Source: Melioribacter roseus P3M-2
Lineage (GTDB): Bacteria > Bacteroidota > Ignavibacteria > Ignavibacteriales > Melioribacteraceae
Direction: 5' to 3'
Assembly: GCF_000279145.1 (NCBI RefSeq)
Contig: NC_018178.1
Location: 2,152,001-2,216,000 of the forward strand
DNA length: 64,000 nt
Positions 52,561 through 63,811 of the stretch are shown one piece after another. The position numbers were made by a program, and so were the translations under genes. The notes beneath the pieces are model-generated. The model was not told the origin of the DNA. It worked only from the letters and a program-made list of their open reading frames with translations, and did not search any database. Numbering within the stretch: the first letter of the stretch is position 1; every line of letters starts with the position of its first letter.

Positions 52561-55500
52561 ATGAAAACAAAATTCTCTGTAATATTTCTCTTAATACTAA
52601 CGTCGGTTATAACAGCTCAGGATATTCGTATTCTGAGTTCAACCCAATCAGAGTTTGTCTTCGATTACGTCCCCAATATAAAAGACACCAACTTTTTTGT
52701 TTATAACGGAAAAAATTACGTCTATCTGGACATCGAGGGAGCTTATATCGAAAACGAGAATTTTCCTGATTCAATACAGCTGCCCGTAAGAGAGTTCAAA
52801 CTCGGAGTGGACGGCGAAACAGGGAATACGATTCAGGTTTTGTTTATCGAGGAAAGCCAGATAGAAGGAATTTATTCGTTTGATAAAACTCCGTCAGCTT
52901 TGCCGCGGCAAAACAAGAAGGAATATGTTACATTCGGCGAATACGGATTAATCAGAAATTTACCATTTCAGTCGTTTTTAATTTATCCCTTACGCGTCGA
53001 CGGCGAAAACGGTATAACGCACGTGATAAAAAGAATGAGAGTGCGCATTAGCTTATCCTCTTCGAACCGTGAAAAAATTCCCGTCGAAGAATCCGTCTTG
53101 CAATATTCGGTACTAAACTGGAATGTGGCAAAAAATTGGGGAATCAATCGGAATCGTCTTTCCAAAGTAAACGTCCCTATTTTTTCGACCGGTAAATGGT
53201 ACCGTTTCGAAGCAAACGAGGAAGGAATTTATAAAATTGATAAGTCGTTTCTCGAATCGATGGGAATTAATTTGTCCGAAGTAAATCCCAAAACGATTAA
53301 AATTTATTCTGTTAACGGGTATGCGCTGCCGGAAAATATCGACGACGAATCGATCGGCTTCAATGAAAATGCAATTTATGTAAAAGGCGAGGAAGACGAA
53401 GTATTTAACGAAGGCGATTATATTTTATTCTATTCTAGGGGAATTCAAGCATGGGAATACGACGAAAGCCGCCGCTCTATTCAGAGAATCAAAAATCCAT
53501 TCACGAAAAAAAATTATTTCTGGCTTACTTTCGGCGGAAATCAAGGGAAAAGAATGCCGGCAAAATCTTCGCTCAACTCTTCCAATGTTTACATGCAAAA
53601 CACTACTCCATCGTATGTTTTTAACGACAAAGACAGCGTCAAAATAGGGGCTTCGGGCAGAGAATATTTCGGAGATGTGTTTTCAGGCGCTCGCAGGGAA
53701 AGAGTTTATCTGAATACATTATACGGACTGGCGCCCGGTACGAAAATAAATTACAAATTCAGACTTATCAGTACGTCTTCGGAAGTTATCAGTTATTCCG
53801 TTAGGGAGAGCAACCAGCTGATCTATTCGGGTTCGATACCGCTGAATTCCAAGCTCTCATACACATACGGCACACAGAGCGCCGGGATGGCGTCTTATTC
53901 GAGCCAATTGACCGACAACAGGAGCAATCTGAAATTCACAATCAACACGAATATTTCTTCGGCAAGCGTTTATCTCGATTATTTCGAAATTGAATATCAA
54001 AGGTATCTGAAAGCTACGATGGATTACCTGATCTTCTTTTCGAAAGATACCAACGCGACTATTGAATACAGAATTACCGACTTTTCCAACAGCAATATAT
54101 TTGCGTTCGATTTAACAGAACCATACTACGTTAAGATGATTACAGGAGCCTTTATTAGCGGCGGAGAATTCAGATTCCAGTCCCAAGAAAACGAAAACAG
54201 AATATCGAAATATATGGCAATAAATTCGTCCGCATTTAAGAGTCCGTCCGGAGGAGCTCAAATGACACCTGTTGATATTCTTAGCAATACTTCCGGCAGC
54301 CGGATGATTGTTATAACAAATAAATATTTCAAAGAACAAGCGGAAAAATACGCCGCTTACAGAAGCTCGGAATCGCCCGATCCTCTTTCTACTTCGATAT
54401 ATTACGTCGACGATATTATGAATCAGTTCAGCGGCGGCATGCTCGACCCGACTTCGATACGCGATTTTCTCAAATATGCGTACGACAATTGGCAAACCAA
54501 ACCCGAATATGCGCTTTTCTTTGGCGACGGAGACTACGATTACTTGAATGTAGTGACCGAAGACTTAGACAAAAACTTTGTGCCGACTTATCAAACTGCT
54601 GAGTCTCTCAGCGAAATTAATTCATATTCAACCGACGATTATTACGCCAGGGTCTCCGGTCCCGACAGGGCGGTTGATCTGGCGACGGGCAGATTGGCTG
54701 TTCAATCCCAAACCGACGCCGAAGCGGTAATCGATAAAATTAGAAAATACGAGAACGAATCTTCTACCGGACCGTGGCGTTATCGAATAACAATGATTGC
54801 CGACGACGGACTTACCACCGACGGCGACGATACTTCATTGCATACGCGCCAGTCGGAAGAGCTGATACTGAGAAGAATATCAAAAGCCTACGATTTGAAT
54901 AAGATTTATCTGGTGGCTTATCCTACCGTTCTTACTGGACTCGGCAGAAGAAAACCGGAAGTAAACAAAGCAATAATTAACGCATTCAATAACGGCACTT
55001 TGATTGCCAATTATATAGGCCATGGTAATCCCAACACATGGGCTCATGAATACGTATTCGAAAAAGCAACGACAATTCCACAGTTGAAAAATTCGGAGTT
55101 TTTCTTTTTGACGGCTGCTACGTGCGATTTCGGAAAATTCGACGATATGAGCGAACAGAGTTCTACCGAATTGATGGTCAATATGCCGGATGCGGGCGCA
55201 ATCGGAATTTTTACAGCGGCGCGCGTTGTCTATGCGACTTCGAATGCGGCAATAAACGACACTTTTTACACGTATCTTTTCAAACGCACGCCGGACGGCA
55301 AACCTCTGAGAATAGGCGACGTTTTTATGCTAACGAAACAAAATCGTACTGCGATTAACGACCAGAAATTTCATCTGTTTTGCGATCCGGCATTGAGGCT
55401 CAAAATTCCCGCAGAAAGCGCTCGGGTCGATTCGGTTAACGGAGCTCCGGTGAATAAAACCGTCCAAATCAACGCGCTCGGAAATGTGAATATCAAAGGT

Positions 55501-56466
55501 TCCGTAAACGAAAATTCCGGTTCCGATTTCAACGGCGAAGCTATTATAAGCGTGTATGACTCGGAGCGAAAAGTATATTACCAGGAAATAAATTATACGG
55601 TGACAATGCCCGGAGGATTGATCTACAGAGGAAGGGCGTCTGTTGAAAACGGTAAGTACAACACCGAATTTATTGTGCCTAAAGACATTTCCTACGAAAA
55701 TAAAAACGGTAAAATCACGGCTTACGTATTCAACGAAAAATACGACGCCGTCGGTTATACAAATAATGTTGTTGTAGGCGGAACAAATCCGAACGCGGTA
55801 AACGACGGCAAAGGTCCCGAAATTGAAGTCTACTTCGATAATGAAGAATTTGACAACGCTTATCTTGTTAATCCCGATTTTACTCTAATCGTCAAATTAT
55901 TTGACGAAACTGGGCTGAATACTACCGGAACGGGCATCGGGCATAAACTCGAAGGCGTTCTCGATGGCGACGAAAACAACGCAATCGACTTTACGAATTA
56001 TTTCGTGGGCGATTTGAACTCGGGCGGCAAATCGGGCGCGGTTAAATATAAATTTACTTCGCTTTCCGAAGGCGAACATAATATCAGAATAAAAGCGTGG
56101 GATGTTTTTAATAACTTTTCCGAAACCGAAGTCTATTTTACGGTTGTAAACGAGAGCGACGAATTGTATCTGAGAAATATTTATAATTATCCGAATCCGT
56201 TTTCCTCCTCGACAACTTTTACTTTCCAGCACAATGCAAACAACGCCATCGATGTTAAAATTAAAATATATACTGTGGCGGGAAGACTGATAAAAGAAAT
56301 TGACGAATATTCGGTTATGGATCGATTTGTGAGAATCGATTGGGACGGCAGGGACGAGGACGGGAATTCATTGGCAAACGGAACTTACTTATATAAAATT
56401 GTAGCGCAAACTACCGACGGTTCTTTTAAGAAGAGCGCGCTCGGTAAGTTGTCGATAATAAGATAA
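52561..56466 (+). CDS. porU: Type IX secretion system sortase PorU (C25 peptidase)
   Basis: 1301 residues. A gingipain-like cysteine protease that cleaves C-terminal sorting domains of exported proteins and attaches the cargo to the cell surface. Signal peptide (1-19), N-terminal beta domains, then the C25 catalytic core with H821 in NYIGHGNPNTWAHE and C855 in TAATCDFG. From about 1210 it has its own type A sorting domain (NYPNPFSSSTTF to GKLSIIR). The length agrees with PorU. The adjacent porV encodes its known partner in the attachment complex. Confidence 0.93.
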   Translation: MKTKFSVIFLLILTSVITAQDIRILSSTQSEFVFDYVPNIKDTNFFVYNGKNYVYLDIEGAYIENENFPDSIQLPVREFKLGVDGETGNTIQVLFIEESQIEGIYSFDKTPSALPRQNKKEYVTFGEYGLIRNLPFQSFLIYPLRVDGENGITHVIKRMRVRISLSSSNREKIPVEESVLQYSVLNWNVAKNWGINRNRLSKVNVPIFSTGKWYRFEANEEGIYKIDKSFLESMGINLSEVNPKTIKIYSVNGYALPENIDDESIGFNENAIYVKGEEDEVFNEGDYILFYSRGIQAWEYDESRRSIQRIKNPFTKKNYFWLTFGGNQGKRMPAKSSLNSSNVYMQNTTPSYVFNDKDSVKIGASGREYFGDVFSGARRERVYLNTLYGLAPGTKINYKFRLISTSSEVISYSVRESNQLIYSGSIPLNSKLSYTYGTQSAGMASYSSQLTDNRSNLKFTINTNISSASVYLDYFEIEYQRYLKATMDYLIFFSKDTNATIEYRITDFSNSNIFAFDLTEPYYVKMITGAFISGGEFRFQSQENENRISKYMAINSSAFKSPSGGAQMTPVDILSNTSGSRMIVITNKYFKEQAEKYAAYRSSESPDPLSTSIYYVDDIMNQFSGGMLDPTSIRDFLKYAYDNWQTKPEYALFFGDGDYDYLNVVTEDLDKNFVPTYQTAESLSEINSYSTDDYYARVSGPDRAVDLATGRLAVQSQTDAEAVIDKIRKYENESSTGPWRYRITMIADDGLTTDGDDTSLHTRQSEELILRRISKAYDLNKIYLVAYPTVLTGLGRRKPEVNKAIINAFNNGTLIANYIGHGNPNTWAHEYVFEKATTIPQLKNSEFFFLTAATCDFGKFDDMSEQSSTELMVNMPDAGAIGIFTAARVVYATSNAAINDTFYTYLFKRTPDGKPLRIGDVFMLTKQNRTAINDQKFHLFCDPALRLKIPAESARVDSVNGAPVNKTVQINALGNVNIKGSVNENSGSDFNGEAIISVYDSERKVYYQEINYTVTMPGGLIYRGRASVENGKYNTEFIVPKDISYENKNGKITAYVFNEKYDAVGYTNNVVVGGTNPNAVNDGKGPEIEVYFDNEEFDNAYLVNPDFTLIVKLFDETGLNTTGTGIGHKLEGVLDGDENNAIDFTNYFVGDLNSGGKSGAVKYKFTSLSEGEHNIRIKAWDVFNNFSETEVYFTVVNESDELYLRNIYNYPNPFSSSTTFTFQHNANNAIDVKIKIYTVAGRLIKEIDEYSVMDRFVRIDWDGRDEDGNSLANGTYLYKIVAQTTDGSFKKSALGKLSIIR

Positions 56467-56499: not shown

Positions 56500-57690
56500 A
56501 TGAAAAGAATAATTTTGATTCCGATGATTATGTTGATGTTAGCGGGAATCGGTTCTGAAATAAAAGCGCAAGGCGAAGCTGCATTACCCTTCCTTTTGAT
56601 TGCTCCCGATTCGAGAGCCGGCGGTATCGGCGAATCCGGTACCGGATTGGCTGATAATTCCGCTGCAATATTCTGGAATCCCGCCGGAATTGCTTTTTTA
56701 ACCGGCTCGGAAGTCAGTTTTACTCACAGTAACTGGCTGCCGCAGTTCCATCTCGACTTGTTCTACGACTATGCTACTTATCGACAATATATAGAAGATT
56801 TGAACGGCAGTATTACGGCAAGCGTTACTTACATGAATTACGGAGAAATTGTTCGCACAGGCTCCGATTCGCCCGAACCGATCGGAACATTCAGATCGTT
56901 CGACGCGGCGCTTACAGTCGGTTATGCCACCAAGTTGAGCAACGACTGGGGACTCGGATTGAACTTCCGTTTAATTCACAGCCGATTGGCGGACAAACCG
57001 ACCGAAGCCGAACAGGGTAAAGGCGTCGCAACCACAGTCAGCTTCGACGTCGGAGCTATGTGGCGTCCCGAGCATTTGAATCTGCCTCTGATCGGAGATA
57101 TGAGCAACCGCCTGAGTATCGGTATGAATCTCAGCAATATCGGTCCGAAAATCTATTATATCGATCAGGCGCAGGCGGATCCGATACCTACAAATTTCAG
57201 ACTCGGTTTTGCAACGCGGCTTTATCAGGACGATTTCAACTCAATAACAATGACGCTCGATTTCAGCAAATTATTGGTCGATAAGGGCGAAGCCTTTCGC
57301 GGCGAAGTCGACAGTAACGCTACTCCGAAACAACGGAAAGATTTTTACGAAGCGATTTTCACCGCATGGGCTGATCAGCCGTTGAGCGAGGAAATAAGAG
57401 ATATTACAACCGCCATGGGTCTGGAATACTGGTACGGTCAACCGGGAGATTTTATGTTTGCCTTGAGAGCGGGATATTTTTATGAAGACCCGTCTTTCGG
57501 AAACAGAAAATTCGTTACTATCGGAGCGGGTATCAGATACGACATGTACGGATTCGATTTCAGTTATTTAACAACTGACGTATTCAAAGAAGGCGAAAAT
57601 CATCCGCTCAATAATACATTACGCTTCACCATCTTTATCGGCTGGGGAGGCGTCCCTCAAACTCAATTAGGATTTCCCAGAGGTATTTAA
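56500..57690 (+). CDS. porV: Type IX secretion system outer-membrane protein PorV
   Basis: 396 residues with a signal peptide (about 1-23). A FadL-like beta-barrel beginning LPFLLIAPDSRAGGIGESGTGLADNSAAIFWNPAGIA, a hallmark of the PorV/UPF0164 family. PorV binds sorting-domain cargo and passes it to PorU. It has the strongest ribosome site in the window (AAGGAGGT) and begins 33 bases after porU. The other core components (PorK, L, M, N, T, Sov) are not in the window. Confidence 0.92.
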   Translation: MKRIILIPMIMLMLAGIGSEIKAQGEAALPFLLIAPDSRAGGIGESGTGLADNSAAIFWNPAGIAFLTGSEVSFTHSNWLPQFHLDLFYDYATYRQYIEDLNGSITASVTYMNYGEIVRTGSDSPEPIGTFRSFDAALTVGYATKLSNDWGLGLNFRLIHSRLADKPTEAEQGKGVATTVSFDVGAMWRPEHLNLPLIGDMSNRLSIGMNLSNIGPKIYYIDQAQADPIPTNFRLGFATRLYQDDFNSITMTLDFSKLLVDKGEAFRGEVDSNATPKQRKDFYEAIFTAWADQPLSEEIRDITTAMGLEYWYGQPGDFMFALRAGYFYEDPSFGNRKFVTIGAGIRYDMYGFDFSYLTTDVFKEGENHPLNNTLRFTIFIGWGGVPQTQLGFPRGI

Positions 57691-57696
57691 TCAATT

Positions 57697-60600
57697 ATGA
57701 ATAAATCAAATCTCAAGATATTTTTATGGCTGGGAATATTAATTCCCGGCCTTTTGTTTGCAGGCTCGCAGAGCGAAAAGAAATTTTCAATTACCCGGTC
57801 GCTCCCGAATAATTCGACTCAAAATGCGGCAATCGGCAAACTGAAGATTTTGGCCGTTATGGTGGAATTTCAGGAGGACAACGATGAATATACGTACGGA
57901 AACGGAAAGTTCGGTTCGGTCTATACGGAAGATTACGGCGATACGATAATCGATCCTCTGCCGCACGACCGCACTTATTTTGAGAATCACCTCGAGTTTG
58001 CAAAAAATTATTTTTATAAAGTTTCAGACGGTAAATTGAATATCGAATATACCGTTTTGCCGGAAATAATTACTGTATCCAAAACAATGCGCAACTATGC
58101 GCCGCCTTTGACCAATCCCGACGATCTGGGCGGGCTGGCTAATTTTGCGGGGGAAGTTTGGGATTTAGCCGATTCGGTTTATGCGGATCTCGACTTTTCT
58201 CAATACGATTTGTTCACGATTTTTCATGCCGGAGCGGGAGCGGCTTTTTATCCGACAGGGAAAATCGGTTACGAAAGAGATTTGCCTTCCGTATTCCTGG
58301 GGTTCAATACTCTTCAAAAATATCTGGGCAATGATTTCGCCGGGTTTACGGTCAAAAACGATTTTAATATACGGAACACTGTCATACTTCCTTCAACCGA
58401 ATCGAAAGAAGTTCAATCTTTCGGTGAAAAATATCTTTATCAGATGTCCATTAACGGTTTGATAGTGTCGAATATCGGAAGCTATTTGGGATTGCCCGAT
58501 TTATTCAATACCGAAACGGGAGTTACTGCTATCGACAGATTCGGTTTGATGGACGGGAACGCAATATTTGCTTACAGCGGTTTGTTCCCGCCGGAACCGT
58601 CTCCCTGGGAAAAAATATTCTTGGGTTGGGTAGAACCTGTAGTGTTGAACGCCAATGTCAATAATGTTCACATTGCGGCAAAACTTGCCGCTGCGGCGGG
58701 CGACACGGTTATCGTCAAAATTCCGATAAACGACCACGAATATTTTCTGGTAGAGAATAGACAACGCGACGTTAATAAAGACGGGATAACTCTTACTTAT
58801 AAAATAGGCGACAACGTTTATACGTTTAATACGCAAAAAGACACCGGCAGATTCAGATTCGACAATGCCGATACGATGCGGGGCGTTGTTGTGGACGTTG
58901 ACGAATTCGATTGGGCTGTGCCCGCCAATGGAATTGTTATTTGGCATATCGACGAAAAAATTATTAACGAAAAATATGCCGAAAACAGAGTTAATGCGGA
59001 TTTGTACAACAAAGGCGTCGACATAGAAGAAGCCGACGGAATTCAGGATATCGGAGAATTGTTTAATACTGTTTTCGGCGAAGTATATGGTATTGCGGGC
59101 GAGGAAGATTTATGGTATAAAGGAAATAAAGCGCGCTTTTATAAAAACCGTTTCGGCAGCGATACAAAGCCGAACAGCAATTCCAATTCGGGCGCAAAGT
59201 CGTTCATTACTATCGACAATTTCTCGGAACCCGGAAATGTAATGACGTTCGACTTATTTATCGGCAACGATCGATTCCTTAAACTTGCAAATATACTTCT
59301 CGACGGAAACTATAAGTTTGTCGGAGGTTTGGACAATCTTCCGTACATTTTTCTTATTAACAATCACGACTTGATTATACGACATCTCGAATCGGAATAT
59401 TCATTGGTGTTTCCGGAATTTTCGGAAGTGAGTCCTTCGATATTCTCAGCGTCCTCGAACTTTGTTGTAGTGGGAGCAAATAATAATCAGTTTAATAAGC
59501 TTACTTTGAGTTCCGCGCTTGACAGGGTTATTTCTCAAAACTCTTATAACTTTTCCGAGAACGAAGGTTCAAAGGTTATTACCCCGGTGACCTACAGAGG
59601 ACTAAATTTCTATACTCTGATGGGGACGGATATTTCAAGATTTTTGAGATTGGATCATTTTACAGGCATATACCGCACATTTGATTTCAGTGAATACGGT
59701 AAAATTGTTCAGATTTCGGCATACCGCGATCAGAATGATTTTGCATTGATTACCGACGGAGGATATTTTATAACGGGTAAATTTCCCAACGACGTGAAAA
59801 ATAGAGCGCTTAATTTAAGCGGAGTTCCCGTTAAATTAATCACGCTCTTGAAGCCGGACGGTAAAAACGAATTTATAGTTCTCAACGAAAATAACGGTTT
59901 CGACATAATTGCAGAGGGCGGAATTCGCAACAGCTTTGTGATTAATACTGCGGATACGATAAAAGATTTTGCAATTTACGTAAATCAAACGAACGGAACT
60001 TATTCGATTTTGGTTGTGGATAAGAACAAGGTCTTGTCTTTCAACAGCTTCGGCATTTTAAACGATAATTTTCCGATAACAGCGTCGTCGGAATTAAACG
60101 ATTACATTTTAACAACAGATTTAAATAACGACGGGGTCTGGGATATTTTAGTTTCCTCTGTTGACGGAAATCTTTTTGCATGGGACGGAGCGAGCGGAGA
60201 TTTATTACAGGGTTTTCCGATTTCTACCGGAGCTTCGCTCAAAGTTCCGCCGGTGTTATTTACAATCGACAATAGTCAGAGCTTAACTAACTTCAAATCC
60301 GGAATAATTTATGCGTCCGTCGATGCGGAAAATTATTTGAACTGCTGGTTTATTGCGACAGACAATCCTTCTTCCTACGGCTGGCATTCGGTGGCGGGCG
60401 ATTTGTATAATTCTTATACGATTACATTGCCCGCGGAAAATATTATAGATGAATATTTCCCTGAAAGCAAAGCTTACAATTGGCCTAATCCGGTATACGG
60501 CAACGAAACTTATATAAGATATTTCGTAGCCGAAGATTCGGATGTCGAAGTGACAATATTGGACGCCGCCGGCGATTATGTGACTACGCTCAAAGGAACC

Positions 60601-60735
60601 GGACGCGGCGGATTCGACAATGAAATTCGGTGGGATGTTTCGGACGTTCCAAGCGGAGTTTATTTCGCGCGTATCAATGTTTCCTCGGCTGACAAAGCGG
60701 CCGCTAAATTAATCAAAATTGCAATCATCAAGTAG
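57697..60735 (+). CDS. M6-protease-like protein with a lost zinc motif and a type IX sorting domain
   Basis: 1012 residues: signal peptide (about 1-22), an immune-inhibitor-A/M6-like region (45-530), a propeller-like middle (535-910), and a C-terminal type A sorting domain (NWPNPVYGNETYIRYFV to KLIKIAIIK). The M6 motif HExxHxLGLPDLY is expected at 258, but the sequence is SNIGSYLGLPDLF (S258, N259, S262), so both zinc histidines and the catalytic glutamate are gone while the flanking LGLPDL and GLMD are kept. It is probably secreted and surface-attached by the system encoded next to it, perhaps as a binding protein. Seven bases separate it from porV. Confidence 0.85.
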   Translation: MNKSNLKIFLWLGILIPGLLFAGSQSEKKFSITRSLPNNSTQNAAIGKLKILAVMVEFQEDNDEYTYGNGKFGSVYTEDYGDTIIDPLPHDRTYFENHLEFAKNYFYKVSDGKLNIEYTVLPEIITVSKTMRNYAPPLTNPDDLGGLANFAGEVWDLADSVYADLDFSQYDLFTIFHAGAGAAFYPTGKIGYERDLPSVFLGFNTLQKYLGNDFAGFTVKNDFNIRNTVILPSTESKEVQSFGEKYLYQMSINGLIVSNIGSYLGLPDLFNTETGVTAIDRFGLMDGNAIFAYSGLFPPEPSPWEKIFLGWVEPVVLNANVNNVHIAAKLAAAAGDTVIVKIPINDHEYFLVENRQRDVNKDGITLTYKIGDNVYTFNTQKDTGRFRFDNADTMRGVVVDVDEFDWAVPANGIVIWHIDEKIINEKYAENRVNADLYNKGVDIEEADGIQDIGELFNTVFGEVYGIAGEEDLWYKGNKARFYKNRFGSDTKPNSNSNSGAKSFITIDNFSEPGNVMTFDLFIGNDRFLKLANILLDGNYKFVGGLDNLPYIFLINNHDLIIRHLESEYSLVFPEFSEVSPSIFSASSNFVVVGANNNQFNKLTLSSALDRVISQNSYNFSENEGSKVITPVTYRGLNFYTLMGTDISRFLRLDHFTGIYRTFDFSEYGKIVQISAYRDQNDFALITDGGYFITGKFPNDVKNRALNLSGVPVKLITLLKPDGKNEFIVLNENNGFDIIAEGGIRNSFVINTADTIKDFAIYVNQTNGTYSILVVDKNKVLSFNSFGILNDNFPITASSELNDYILTTDLNNDGVWDILVSSVDGNLFAWDGASGDLLQGFPISTGASLKVPPVLFTIDNSQSLTNFKSGIIYASVDAENYLNCWFIATDNPSSYGWHSVAGDLYNSYTITLPAENIIDEYFPESKAYNWPNPVYGNETYIRYFVAEDSDVEVTILDAAGDYVTTLKGTGRGGFDNEIRWDVSDVPSGVYFARINVSSADKAAAKLIKIAIIK

Positions 60736-60742
60736 AAACCTT

Positions 60743-63700
60743 ATGCGAAAATTATTCTTATTCTTTTTGTTGATACCGTATTTATTGACCGCTCAATTCA
60801 ATGAATATAATCCCGAATACGATTGGTATACATTAAAAGGCGAACATGTATTTGTACATTACCACCCCGAAGCGGAAAGGACTGCCAGGACGGTTCTGAA
60901 AATAGCCGAAGAAGTTTGGGGCCCGATTACGTCATTATACGATTACGAACCCGAAACGGTTCATTTTGTAATTAAAGATATCGACGATTATTCCAACGGC
61001 GCGACGTATTTTTTCGACAATAAAATCGAAATATGGGCGTCCGCTCTCGATTTCGATTTGCGCGGCTCGCACAATTGGCTAAGAAACGTAATATCTCACG
61101 AATTTACTCATATGGTTCAAATTCAGGCTGCAATGAAAATCGGCAGAAGAGTGCCGGCAGTTTATCTTCAATTTATGAATTATGAAGATAAACGCCGTCC
61201 CGATATCTTATACGGTTTCCCGAATTTTATTGCCTCGTATCCGATTGCGACGGTAAACGTGCCGGCATGGTTTGCCGAAGGCACGGCTCAATATATGCGT
61301 AAAGAATTTAACTACGATAATTGGGATACGCACAGAGACATGATTTTGAGATGCTACGCTCTCGACGGGAAAATGCTTACGTGGAATCAAATGGGCGTAT
61401 TCGGAAAAACTAGTCTTGGCAACGAATCCGTTTATAACGCCGGATTTGCTCTTACACGCTATATAGCGCAAAAGTACGGCGAGGATAAATTGGTGGAAAT
61501 AAACGACCGATTGAAAGCGCTTACGAATTTTACTATCGACGCAGCCATTGAACAAACGCTCGGTATTTCAGGCAAACAACTCTATTCGGAATGGAGCGAA
61601 TTCCTTAAGAAAGATTATAAAGAAAGAATTAATAATGTGCTCGAAAACCGTGTAGAAGGCGAATTAATTACTCCGGTAGGTTTCGGTAATTTTTATCCTT
61701 CATTCTCGGACGACGGTTCTAAAATGGTTTATGTGTCGAATAAGTACAGCGATTATTTCGGCGTTTCTTCAATTTATTTGTATGATTTCAAAACAAAGAA
61801 AGAAAAATTACTAGTGCCAATGGTTCGTTCCACGGCAGTTTTCATACCGGGCTCAAATAAAATAATTTATGCAAAATTGAGCGACGATAATCCCCGCTGG
61901 AATAATATTCACGACTTGTATCTATATGATCTCGACGAAGAAGAATCGACCCGGCTTACGCACGGCCTAAGAGCGAACAATCCGAACGTTTCTCACGACG
62001 GTTCTAAAATCGTATTCCTCTTCCAAAAGGACGGCACAACCAATATCGGCACTGTCGACATCAACGGAAAGAATTTTAAACAATTGACGTTTTTCAATAA
62101 CGGCGAACAGGTTTACAATCCCAAATTCTCGCCTGACGATTCATACATAGTCTTCGGTTACTCTCTTAAAAATACGAGGGAAATTGCACGGGTGGATACA
62201 AACGGAACCGGATACGATATTATAATTCAAAATGGTTACGACAACCGCGACCCCGTTTTTGACAGTAACGGCAATCTGATTTTCGCCTCGGATATGACAG
62301 GCATTTTCAACCTTTATCGATACGATTTTGAAACCCAAAAAACAACCAGAATATCGAATGTGGTAGGCGGAGCTTTTCAGCCGGATATCGACGGAGAAGG
62401 AAATGTTATTTATGCCGGGTATACTTCCGACGGATTTAAGATATTCCTTCTGGATAAAGAAAGTCAGTCAAAAGTAGACGACGACAAAAAATACGTATGG
62501 ATTGGAAATCCCCCTTTGGGGAACGACAAACCGAAAGGCGATTTGGCTCGATTCAATATAGAAAGGTTGAAGAATTACAACGATTACGAACTGCCGGACG
62601 TAAAACCGTCCAGATACTCGGGCTATTTTTCGCGTTTCAGCATTATACCGTTTATACGTTACGATAATTATATTACTTCGAACAGTTTTGCAGACAGAAT
62701 AAAACCGGGTATTTACGCTGCTTCGAGCGACTATTTGAACAGATTCAGTATATTCGGCGGAGGCGCAATCAACAAAAAATTCGAACGAGATTTGTTCCTC
62801 TCGTTTGAGTACAGAGATAAGCTACCGTTGTTGTTTAATCTGGGACTTAAACCAGAAGTCGGCATAGAGCTTTACAGCGTAAGCCGAAAAACAAATACGG
62901 ATATAATCTTCGACTCGCTCGATACCTCGTTGAGAACGAGTACTGATGTAACCTATAATTTATTCGAAGCCGATTTCTTCGCGCGTCAGAAAATTATTAC
63001 AGCGGGAAATATGTTGGAGTTCAGATACGTCTACAGCAGTTACACAGCCACTCTGGAAGCGTTTATATTTCCGAATACGAGTCTGCTCTATCCTTCGACA
63101 AACGATACCTATTATATAGGCAACGATTTCCAATTGAAATTCAGCCACGACGGAATAATTCCGACAAAAGATGCGGATATAAATCCGGTCGGAAGAAAAA
63201 TAGAGCTTAAATACGATTATGAATTTAACCGCTATAACCCGGACGGAACGTATGAAGTGGCGGACGGCATATTGAAACCGGTCTACAAAAACTACAATTT
63301 CCAAAGAATCGAATTAAACTGGAAAGAATATATGCGCGTCTACATGGAACATACTCTCACGGCTCAAATACGAGCGGGGAGTATTCTGGGACCCGATGTG
63401 CCGGAGTTCTTCGATTTTTATCTGGGCGGTTTGATCGGCATGAAAAGTTATCCGTTCTATGCTGTCAGCGGCAATGAAGTCGCATGGATAAATCTTACAT
63501 ACCGCTTCCCGCTCTTTAAGGATATCGATACGCGGCTGGGTCATCTATATGTCGACAAGATTTACATGTCGGTTTATGCCGATTTCGGCAATGCGTGGAA
63601 CGGCAATAGCGTTAAACTGAACGACTTTAAAAAGGGAGCGGGACTCGAACTTAGAATAAAAATGAACTCGTTCTACCTTTTCCCGACGAGTCTCTTTTTA

Positions 63701-63811
63701 AATGCCGCATATTCGTTCGACAGATTCACCAGAACGATTCTTAATGAAAATGTTACTTACGGGAAGGAATGGAATTTTTACGGCGGTATATTGTTCGATT
63801 TTAATTTCTAA
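60743..63811 (+). CDS. Gluzincin peptidase, TolB-like propeller and outer-membrane barrel protein (paralogue)
   Basis: 1022 residues from the ATG at 60743, which gives a clean signal peptide (RKLFLFFLLIPYLLTAQ). A peptidase-MA-like domain has HEFTH with H119, E120 and H123, and the third ligand E179 in PAWFAEG. PD40-like propeller repeats follow (about 310-580: GSKMVYVSNK, GSKIVFLFQKD, DSYIVFGYS), then a barrel-like C-terminal 400 residues ending in FDFNF. Same architecture as the protein at 30097. Being in the porUV cluster, it may process cargo at the surface. Catalytic residues are complete, unlike its M6-like neighbour. Confidence 0.82.
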   Translation: MRKLFLFFLLIPYLLTAQFNEYNPEYDWYTLKGEHVFVHYHPEAERTARTVLKIAEEVWGPITSLYDYEPETVHFVIKDIDDYSNGATYFFDNKIEIWASALDFDLRGSHNWLRNVISHEFTHMVQIQAAMKIGRRVPAVYLQFMNYEDKRRPDILYGFPNFIASYPIATVNVPAWFAEGTAQYMRKEFNYDNWDTHRDMILRCYALDGKMLTWNQMGVFGKTSLGNESVYNAGFALTRYIAQKYGEDKLVEINDRLKALTNFTIDAAIEQTLGISGKQLYSEWSEFLKKDYKERINNVLENRVEGELITPVGFGNFYPSFSDDGSKMVYVSNKYSDYFGVSSIYLYDFKTKKEKLLVPMVRSTAVFIPGSNKIIYAKLSDDNPRWNNIHDLYLYDLDEEESTRLTHGLRANNPNVSHDGSKIVFLFQKDGTTNIGTVDINGKNFKQLTFFNNGEQVYNPKFSPDDSYIVFGYSLKNTREIARVDTNGTGYDIIIQNGYDNRDPVFDSNGNLIFASDMTGIFNLYRYDFETQKTTRISNVVGGAFQPDIDGEGNVIYAGYTSDGFKIFLLDKESQSKVDDDKKYVWIGNPPLGNDKPKGDLARFNIERLKNYNDYELPDVKPSRYSGYFSRFSIIPFIRYDNYITSNSFADRIKPGIYAASSDYLNRFSIFGGGAINKKFERDLFLSFEYRDKLPLLFNLGLKPEVGIELYSVSRKTNTDIIFDSLDTSLRTSTDVTYNLFEADFFARQKIITAGNMLEFRYVYSSYTATLEAFIFPNTSLLYPSTNDTYYIGNDFQLKFSHDGIIPTKDADINPVGRKIELKYDYEFNRYNPDGTYEVADGILKPVYKNYNFQRIELNWKEYMRVYMEHTLTAQIRAGSILGPDVPEFFDFYLGGLIGMKSYPFYAVSGNEVAWINLTYRFPLFKDIDTRLGHLYVDKIYMSVYADFGNAWNGNSVKLNDFKKGAGLELRIKMNSFYLFPTSLFLNAAYSFDRFTRTILNENVTYGKEWNFYGGILFDFNF

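Follow-up and report, generated by a model that had tools for sequence, protein, structure and literature searches.

A window of 64,000 nucleotides from Melioribacter roseus P3M-2 (contig NC_018178.1, positions 2,152,001 to 2,216,000; genome of 3,300,414 bases on a single contig) encodes an M6-like inactivated metalloprotease of the type IX secretion system (T9SS), referred to here as M6i. Its gene occupies the third place among four on one strand: those of the sortase PorU and the shuttle PorV come first, and that of a protein combining an HExxH motif, a propeller and a barrel comes last, the successive gaps being 33, 6 and 7 nt (Table 1). The M6i open reading frame (ORF) starts with ATG and runs uninterrupted through 1012 codons, and the product matches the NCBIfam equivalog NF052323 (T9SSA_dep_M6i), named 'T9SS-dependent M6-like inactivated metalloprotease', over its full length (1150.6 bits, cut-off 600, profile positions 2-1043 of 1043); by whole-protein score, M6i is a member of this family. 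The general M6 model TIGR03296 gives M6i 60.9 bits, below its cut-off of 110.8, the Pfam M6 model PF05547 gives no match to M6i, and the HExxH that marks active enzymes of peptidase family M6 is replaced by SNIGS. The C-terminal sorting domain (CTD) is of type A, scoring over the cut-offs of TIGR04183 (24.8 bits, cut-off 23) and PF18962 (30.5 bits, cut-off 27). Its sequence is related to that of the PorU CTD (6za2, E 1.7e-4); a weak relationship to 5m11 (E 0.0093), taken here to be the PorZ structure, is also seen.

Table 1. Features of M6i and of the genes beside it, with positions in the window
Feature	Position	Strand	Evidence
M6i, T9SS-dependent M6-like inactivated metalloprotease, 1012 aa	57697..60735	+	NF052323 and open ORF
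First 45 residues, with a hydrophobic stretch; probably a Sec signal peptide plus linker	57697..57831	+	read from sequence; predicted local distance difference test (pLDDT) < 50 (AlphaFold2)
M6/InhA-like pseudoprotease domain, residues 46-526	57832..59274	+	AlphaFold2 pLDDT 92.8; 4yu5 VIA Z 23.6; dN/dS 0.055
S-N-I-G-S, residues 258-262, replacing HExxH	58468..58482	+	alignments
L-G-L-P-D-L kept, residues 264-269; Asp268 aligned with Asp of active homologues	58486..58503	+	alignments
L-M-D kept, residues 284-286, Met-turn position	58546..58554	+	alignments
Beta-propeller, residues 527-890, probably eight-bladed	59275..60366	+	AlphaFold2; VIA
T9SS type A sorting domain (CTD), residues 925-1012	60469..60732	+	TIGR04183, PF18962
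PorU, T9SS sortase	52561..56466	+	NF033707 976.2 bits (cut-off 420); Peptidase_C25 296.7 bits
PorV, T9SS shuttle, 6 nt upstream of M6i	56500..57690	+	NF033710 277.1 bits (cut-off 250)
Neighbour: gluzincin-like HEFTH...WFAEGTAQY, TolB-like propeller and Omp85-like barrel	60743..63811	+	weak matches below cut-offs

In M6i, SNIGS (residues 258-262) is followed by a tyrosine, by LGLPDL (264-269) and later by FGLMD. In a MAFFT alignment the SNIGS residues fall on the HExxH of the 17 homologous rows that retain this motif, and a profile built from 53 aligned sequences maps the stretch to the active-site region of the M6 peptidase InhA (4yu5, E 2.9e-14). These alignments bear out a preliminary description of the sequence, in which both zinc histidines and the catalytic glutamate were said to be replaced, with LGLPDL, GLMD and a frame of 1012 codons left intact. 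In the main inactive clade, none of 84 distinct rows carries H, E or H at positions 258, 259 and 262, respectively, and the inactivation named by NF052323 is thus shared; the residues found instead are A56 S19 N4 G4 T1 at position 258, S50 N24 T5 Q3 A1 M1 at 259 and S71 N12 G1 at 262. Pro267, Asp268, Leu269 and Asp286 are each present in 84/84 of these rows and Met285 in 80/84. M6i therefore retains the metzincin-like layout of an Asp after the position of HExxHxxGxx and a Met-turn, both of which are found in 17/17 active rows, and the Asp aligned with Asp268 is presumably a zinc ligand in M6.

The counts rest on 79 loci from GTDB genomes, a further 30 found in 198 genomes belonging to the same phylum and 15 stretches surrounding additional matches; the alignment covers the fetched loci, a subset of the matches from the 198 genomes. 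The M6-domain alignment holds 111 rows: 17 active, six from Marinimicrobia, two from Krumholzibacteriota and 86 others, including L042, whose title states no phylum. The duplicate pairs L104/L123 and L106/L125 are counted within the 86 rows, on which the comparison of conserved columns rests, and in the tree; the residue counts given for the main inactive clade refer to the 84 distinct rows, with Marinimicrobia outside. Fragments (L013, L045, L046 and L047), duplicates (L080, L085, L087, L097, L105 and L122) and four Actinoplanes-type rows (L073, L075, L076 and L078) were excluded before alignment. L046 comes from a contig labelled Methanosarcina, its M6i fragment being 55% identical to the M6i of the window, and is probably a binning error.

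FastTree, applied to the 111 M6 domains, groups Marinimicrobia with L042 and the inactive Bacteroidota-type rows in a single clade (support 0.962); the branching of the active groups is weakly supported (0.75-0.89). H, E, H and Asp are all retained in 17/17 active rows, which come from Cloacimonadota, WOR-3 and a few others. Marinimicrobia lack histidine at both His positions in 6/6 rows, the position of Asp268 is replaced in five of the six and unread in the sixth, and the two forms tested against NF052323 score 333.5 and 347.5 bits, below cut-off. Both Krumholzibacteriota rows (L055 and L057) have lost the motif with a different replacement, YQIGI and YQIGK, and are placed elsewhere on the tree with weak support (0.795), a possible second, separate loss of catalysis. 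A single main loss, perhaps plus a second, is the simplest reading.

Two findings had been named in the preliminary description as telling against a pseudoprotease: active orthologues that leave M6i as a lone exception, and an HExxH elsewhere in the domain. The former was not encountered, the SNIGS-like loss being common to all 84 distinct rows, as an alignment of orthologues at the motif had been proposed to reveal. As for the latter, the alignment contains no second HExxH in full-length inactive rows, and in a larger set covering the first 760 residues the motif occurs only in L113, where it is aligned with window residue 129 and is unshared by the other rows shown. No His or Cys stands in any column whose conservation reaches 95% in the inactive clade but does not exceed 20% in active homologues, and so nothing points to a new metal site.

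The full-length AlphaFold2 model of M6i has a mean pLDDT of 86.9, and residues 253-263, which span the altered motif, form a single helix. Residues 523-889 match propellers, with VIA Z 29.5 to an IFT-A chain and 25.7 to the eight-bladed design Tako8. Since full-length fold searches listed propeller matches, the domain 46-526 was folded and searched alone. The isolated domain is modelled at a pLDDT of 92.8 and matches immune inhibitor A 4yu5 (VIA Z 23.6 over 369 residues, root-mean-square deviation 3.1) far above the other listed matches, the next of which are OgpA, ADAM and venom metalloproteinases at Z 8-10. Foldseek likewise places the domain in the InhA fold (4yu6, E 1.9e-13).

The nearest locus, L001 (labelled Melioribacter roseus), encodes a protein 78% identical to M6i, identity being 66% in the propeller versus 89% in the M6 domain. 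The ratio of nonsynonymous to synonymous substitution rates (dN/dS) against L001 is 0.118 for the whole of M6i, 0.055 for the M6 domain, 0.011 for residues 250-290, 0.131 for the propeller and 0.179 for the CTD, set beside 0.059 for PorU, 0.017 for PorV and 0.046 for the barrel protein; since a single pair is compared and its synonymous divergence is high (dS 1.13 for M6i), the values are to be read relative to one another. In conservation, the 41-residue segment 250-290 ranks 22 of 441, and the best segments start at residues 262-267. The dead site belongs to the best-preserved portions of the M6 domain. Chance or sequencing error is ruled out by the loss in 84/84 distinct rows together with the dN/dS of 0.011 at residues 250-290. 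The view of M6i as a conserved pseudoprotease, already put forward in the preliminary description, is supported by strong purifying selection and by a loss that is fixed across the orthologues examined.

Gene context was counted over 56 inactive-clade loci among the matches listed from GTDB genomes. PorV lies directly upstream of M6i in 53 of the 54 loci with at least 700 nt of upstream sequence (median gap 9 nt), the sole miss being the 211-codon fragment L046. Of the 48 loci that extend 2500 nt or more upstream, 41 have PorU ahead of PorV, and four of the seven that do not are from Marinimicrobia; of the 48 that extend 1500 nt or more downstream, 43 have an HExxH-propeller-barrel gene after M6i. 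Cloacimonadota (L059-L061 and L063-L068; genomes G214-G216, G218, G222 and G223) possess a catalytically intact M6 homologue with HEFGH, which is directly preceded by a PorV-family gene in 8/8 testable loci; in the example of L059, this gene scores 228.4 bits with NF033709, over cut-off, and 165.4 bits with the PorV equivalog, below 250. The best PorU-profile matches in Cloacimonadota are C25-type and below cut-off (up to 407 bits), mostly starting at about profile position 355. M6i may have descended from an active, PorV-partnered M6 protease of the sort still present in Cloacimonadota.

The protein encoded downstream of M6i, which the ORF list begins at an upstream TTG, 60719, retains its HExxH in 76 of 77 aligned rows, and no NCBIfam model over cut-off names it. 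The preliminary description had paired it with M6i as the active member of an inactive/active M6 couple; the HEFTH motif is indeed there, but the pairing was rejected, as the two proteins have no detectable homology (best BLASTP E 2.7). It is possibly an unrecognised outer-membrane partner.

The distribution of M6i was compared with that of other T9SS components in 198 genomes of the phylum, with thresholds of E <= 1e-30 for M6i, E <= 1e-100 for PorU and E <= 1e-5 for PorZ. M6i is found in 78 genomes (74 over the model cut-off), PorU in 136 and PorZ in 128, and M6i and PorU occur together in 73. A replacement of PorZ by M6i was considered and rejected: a PorZ match is encoded elsewhere in the genome of the window (G000:C1:2242379-2242846), 71 of the 78 M6i genomes have one, and the PorZ models NF052228 and PF21544 do not match M6i at E <= 1. 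At these thresholds PorU and PorZ are both missing from five Balneolaceae-like M6i genomes (G061, G081, G108, G119 and G171), which may still encode weaker C25 proteins. The locus in these five reads PorV-M6i-barrel, with PorU gone from its usual place; SprA is full length, and CTD matches number 8, 7, 32, 26 and 18, respectively, with 14-66 in four PorU-bearing relatives. Judged from their sequences, the five would have a T9SS that lacks its known sortase. L040 is likewise a Balneolaceae-like PorV-M6i locus without PorU.

The family around G108 was examined as a set of 92 genomes, 66 of good quality, which includes Balneola sp. EhC07 and Balneolaceae bacterium ih13, as judged by identical match coordinates. 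In the 66 good genomes, PorU and M6i are both present in 28, M6i alone in 27, neither in 11 and PorU alone in none; across all 92, PorU without M6i occurs in two, both 82% complete or less. M6i without PorU spans five genera among the good genomes (g66, g73, g82, g104 and g107), and 65 of the good genomes have SprA. Such nested occurrence looks as though PorU had been lost first and M6i later or never.

By model name and score, M6i is a full-length representative of NF052323, to which the present analysis adds the linkage of the gene, its nested occurrence, the structure of the protein and the remoter inactive forms of Marinimicrobia. Immune inhibitor A (4yu5, 4yu6) has the same domain fold, but M6i lacks HExxH and carries an added propeller and a T9SS CTD. 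PorZ is similarly a surface T9SS component with a propeller and a T9SS C-terminal domain, but has two seven-fold propellers and no protease domain as described in an excerpt of PMC5121618, and the window's genome has a separate PorZ. PorU is also a peptidase-fold T9SS component with a CTD whose gene adjoins porV; it is a C25 peptidase, whereas M6i, a dead metallopeptidase, often persists in genomes that lack PorU. Pseudo-ADAMs such as ADAM22 possess a metzincin domain without catalytic residues and act in protein binding, according to part of PMC11266112, but these are animal membrane receptors and the likeness to M6i is one of fold and logic only (Z about 8).

The best explanation, to which we assign a probability of roughly 0.5, is that M6i, secreted by the type IX route, is a surface component without catalytic activity that works together with the shuttle PorV. 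Its computed basis is an M6/InhA fold without the zinc and catalytic residues, the propeller, the type A CTD, the tight porV linkage and the shared loss. A resident, PorV-linked component is proposed because M6i follows the design of PorU and PorZ in having a CTD, domains at the surface and a gene next to porV. Excerpts from the literature describe type A cargo as binding PorV loops inside SprA and leaving with PorV (PMC10994853), PorU and PorZ as CTD proteins themselves (PMC11285876), PorU:PorV and PorQ:PorZ sub-complexes as suggesting that PorV anchors PorU and PorQ anchors PorZ (PMC5562754), and PorZ as surface-exposed through the T9SS with its CTD intact (PMC5121618). On this model, M6i would cross the outer membrane through SprA by means of its own CTD, as reported for PorZ export by the T9SS, and would remain bound to PorV rather than being trimmed and released. 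The emptied, highly constrained M6 cleft, or an adjacent surface, would bind a partner, which may be a client protein, PorV or the HExxH-propeller-barrel neighbour, and the faster-evolving propeller would supply a second, lineage-variable surface. M6i would then act on the translocon/PorV side, before or beside the PorU sortase step. Residency, PorV binding and a cleft ligand are properties that we infer from these comparisons.

Several observations weigh against such a role. Conserved gene order may mean co-expression rather than a complex; no PorV lies near the WOR-3 homologues (2/2), and in Krumholzibacteriota PorV is not directly upstream (2/2), with a weak PorV-like ORF downstream in L057. 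M6i is not a universal part of the system, since 63 of the 136 PorU-bearing phylum genomes have no M6i match. The eleven good Balneolaceae-like genomes without M6i and PorU all carry SprA, and M6i is therefore not strictly required by the translocon; G268, conversely, has M6i but no SprA match, perhaps through an assembly gap. The genomes counted are related species and not independent events.

A possible but tentative alternative is that M6i is ordinary T9SS cargo, such as a glycan- or peptide-binding surface protein, that sits near porV through co-expression alone. The type A CTD is consistent with this, being shared with many proteins here (90 TIGR04183 matches in the window's genome), as are the frequent binding of ligands by propellers noted in an excerpt of PMC5121618 and the absence of M6i from 11 of the 38 good PorU-less genomes. 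Ordinary cargo would not, however, be expected to hold one gene position across phyla, with PorV adjacent in 53/54 loci. The pseudo-site region is also more constrained than the whole of PorU (0.011 versus 0.059), and M6i stays in the other 27 of those 38 genomes. An example of what is likely an ordinary active cargo protease is encoded about 420 kb from M6i, near C1:1787000 (L128:751-2925): this protein is M6-like with HEFSH and a type A CTD, and scores 28.1 bits with TIGR03296 (cut-off 110.8). Two still weaker TIGR03296 matches lie near C1:2892686 and C1:1266004. The persistence of M6i in 27 good genomes without PorU also weakens the idea that it serves the PorU sortase specifically, as its partner, activator or brake, which we regard as unlikely: the PorU-PorV-M6i order in 41/48 loci and the presence of M6i in all 28 good PorU-bearing Balneolaceae-like genomes point towards it, but five inspected loci without PorU retain the rest of the locus and 63/136 PorU-bearing phylum genomes have no M6i match.

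It is quite improbable that the ancestor of M6i was an active protease, partnered with PorV and processing T9SS clients, until PorU replaced it and a non-catalytic scaffold was left. The HEFGH homologue directly after a PorV-family gene in all eight testable Cloacimonadota loci, where the best PorU-profile matches fall below cut-off, speaks for such a history; yet Cloacimonadota hold C25-type proteins scoring up to 407 bits with the PorU profile, so that there is no clean either/or swap, and support for the branching of the active groups is weak (0.75-0.89). It appears highly improbable that the domain still acts as a hydrolase by way of a different metal site or different residues. Asp268, His177, Glu353 and Trp416 are invariant in the 84 distinct rows and could be read in this way, but His177, Glu353 and Trp416 are kept in 16 or 17 of the 17 active homologues and therefore look like fold residues, Asp268 is replaced in five of six Marinimicrobia rows and unread in the sixth, and among columns conserved in the inactive clade yet uncommon in active homologues there is no His or Cys.

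The central point, an inactivated M6-like family, is already recognised in the curated model NF052323, and among the matches listed by literature searches by family name and topic, no article on M6i turned up; the present analysis adds the linkage to PorV, the retention of M6i where PorU and PorZ are lacking, and the finding that the dead site is strongly constrained. M6i offers a clear example of a metzincin-like site that is strongly constrained after the loss of catalysis, and Balneolaceae-like genomes that keep M6i, PorV and SprA without PorU or PorZ make its place in the pathway directly testable. Knowledge of the T9SS rests mainly on Porphyromonas and Flavobacterium, labels that occur on none of the 79 loci listed by a pattern-based search in which the genera were not searched by name. 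Models built on these two may lack a component, which would be the conserved pseudoenzyme found at the PorV position in Ignavibacteria, Balneolales, Kryptonia and Marinimicrobia.

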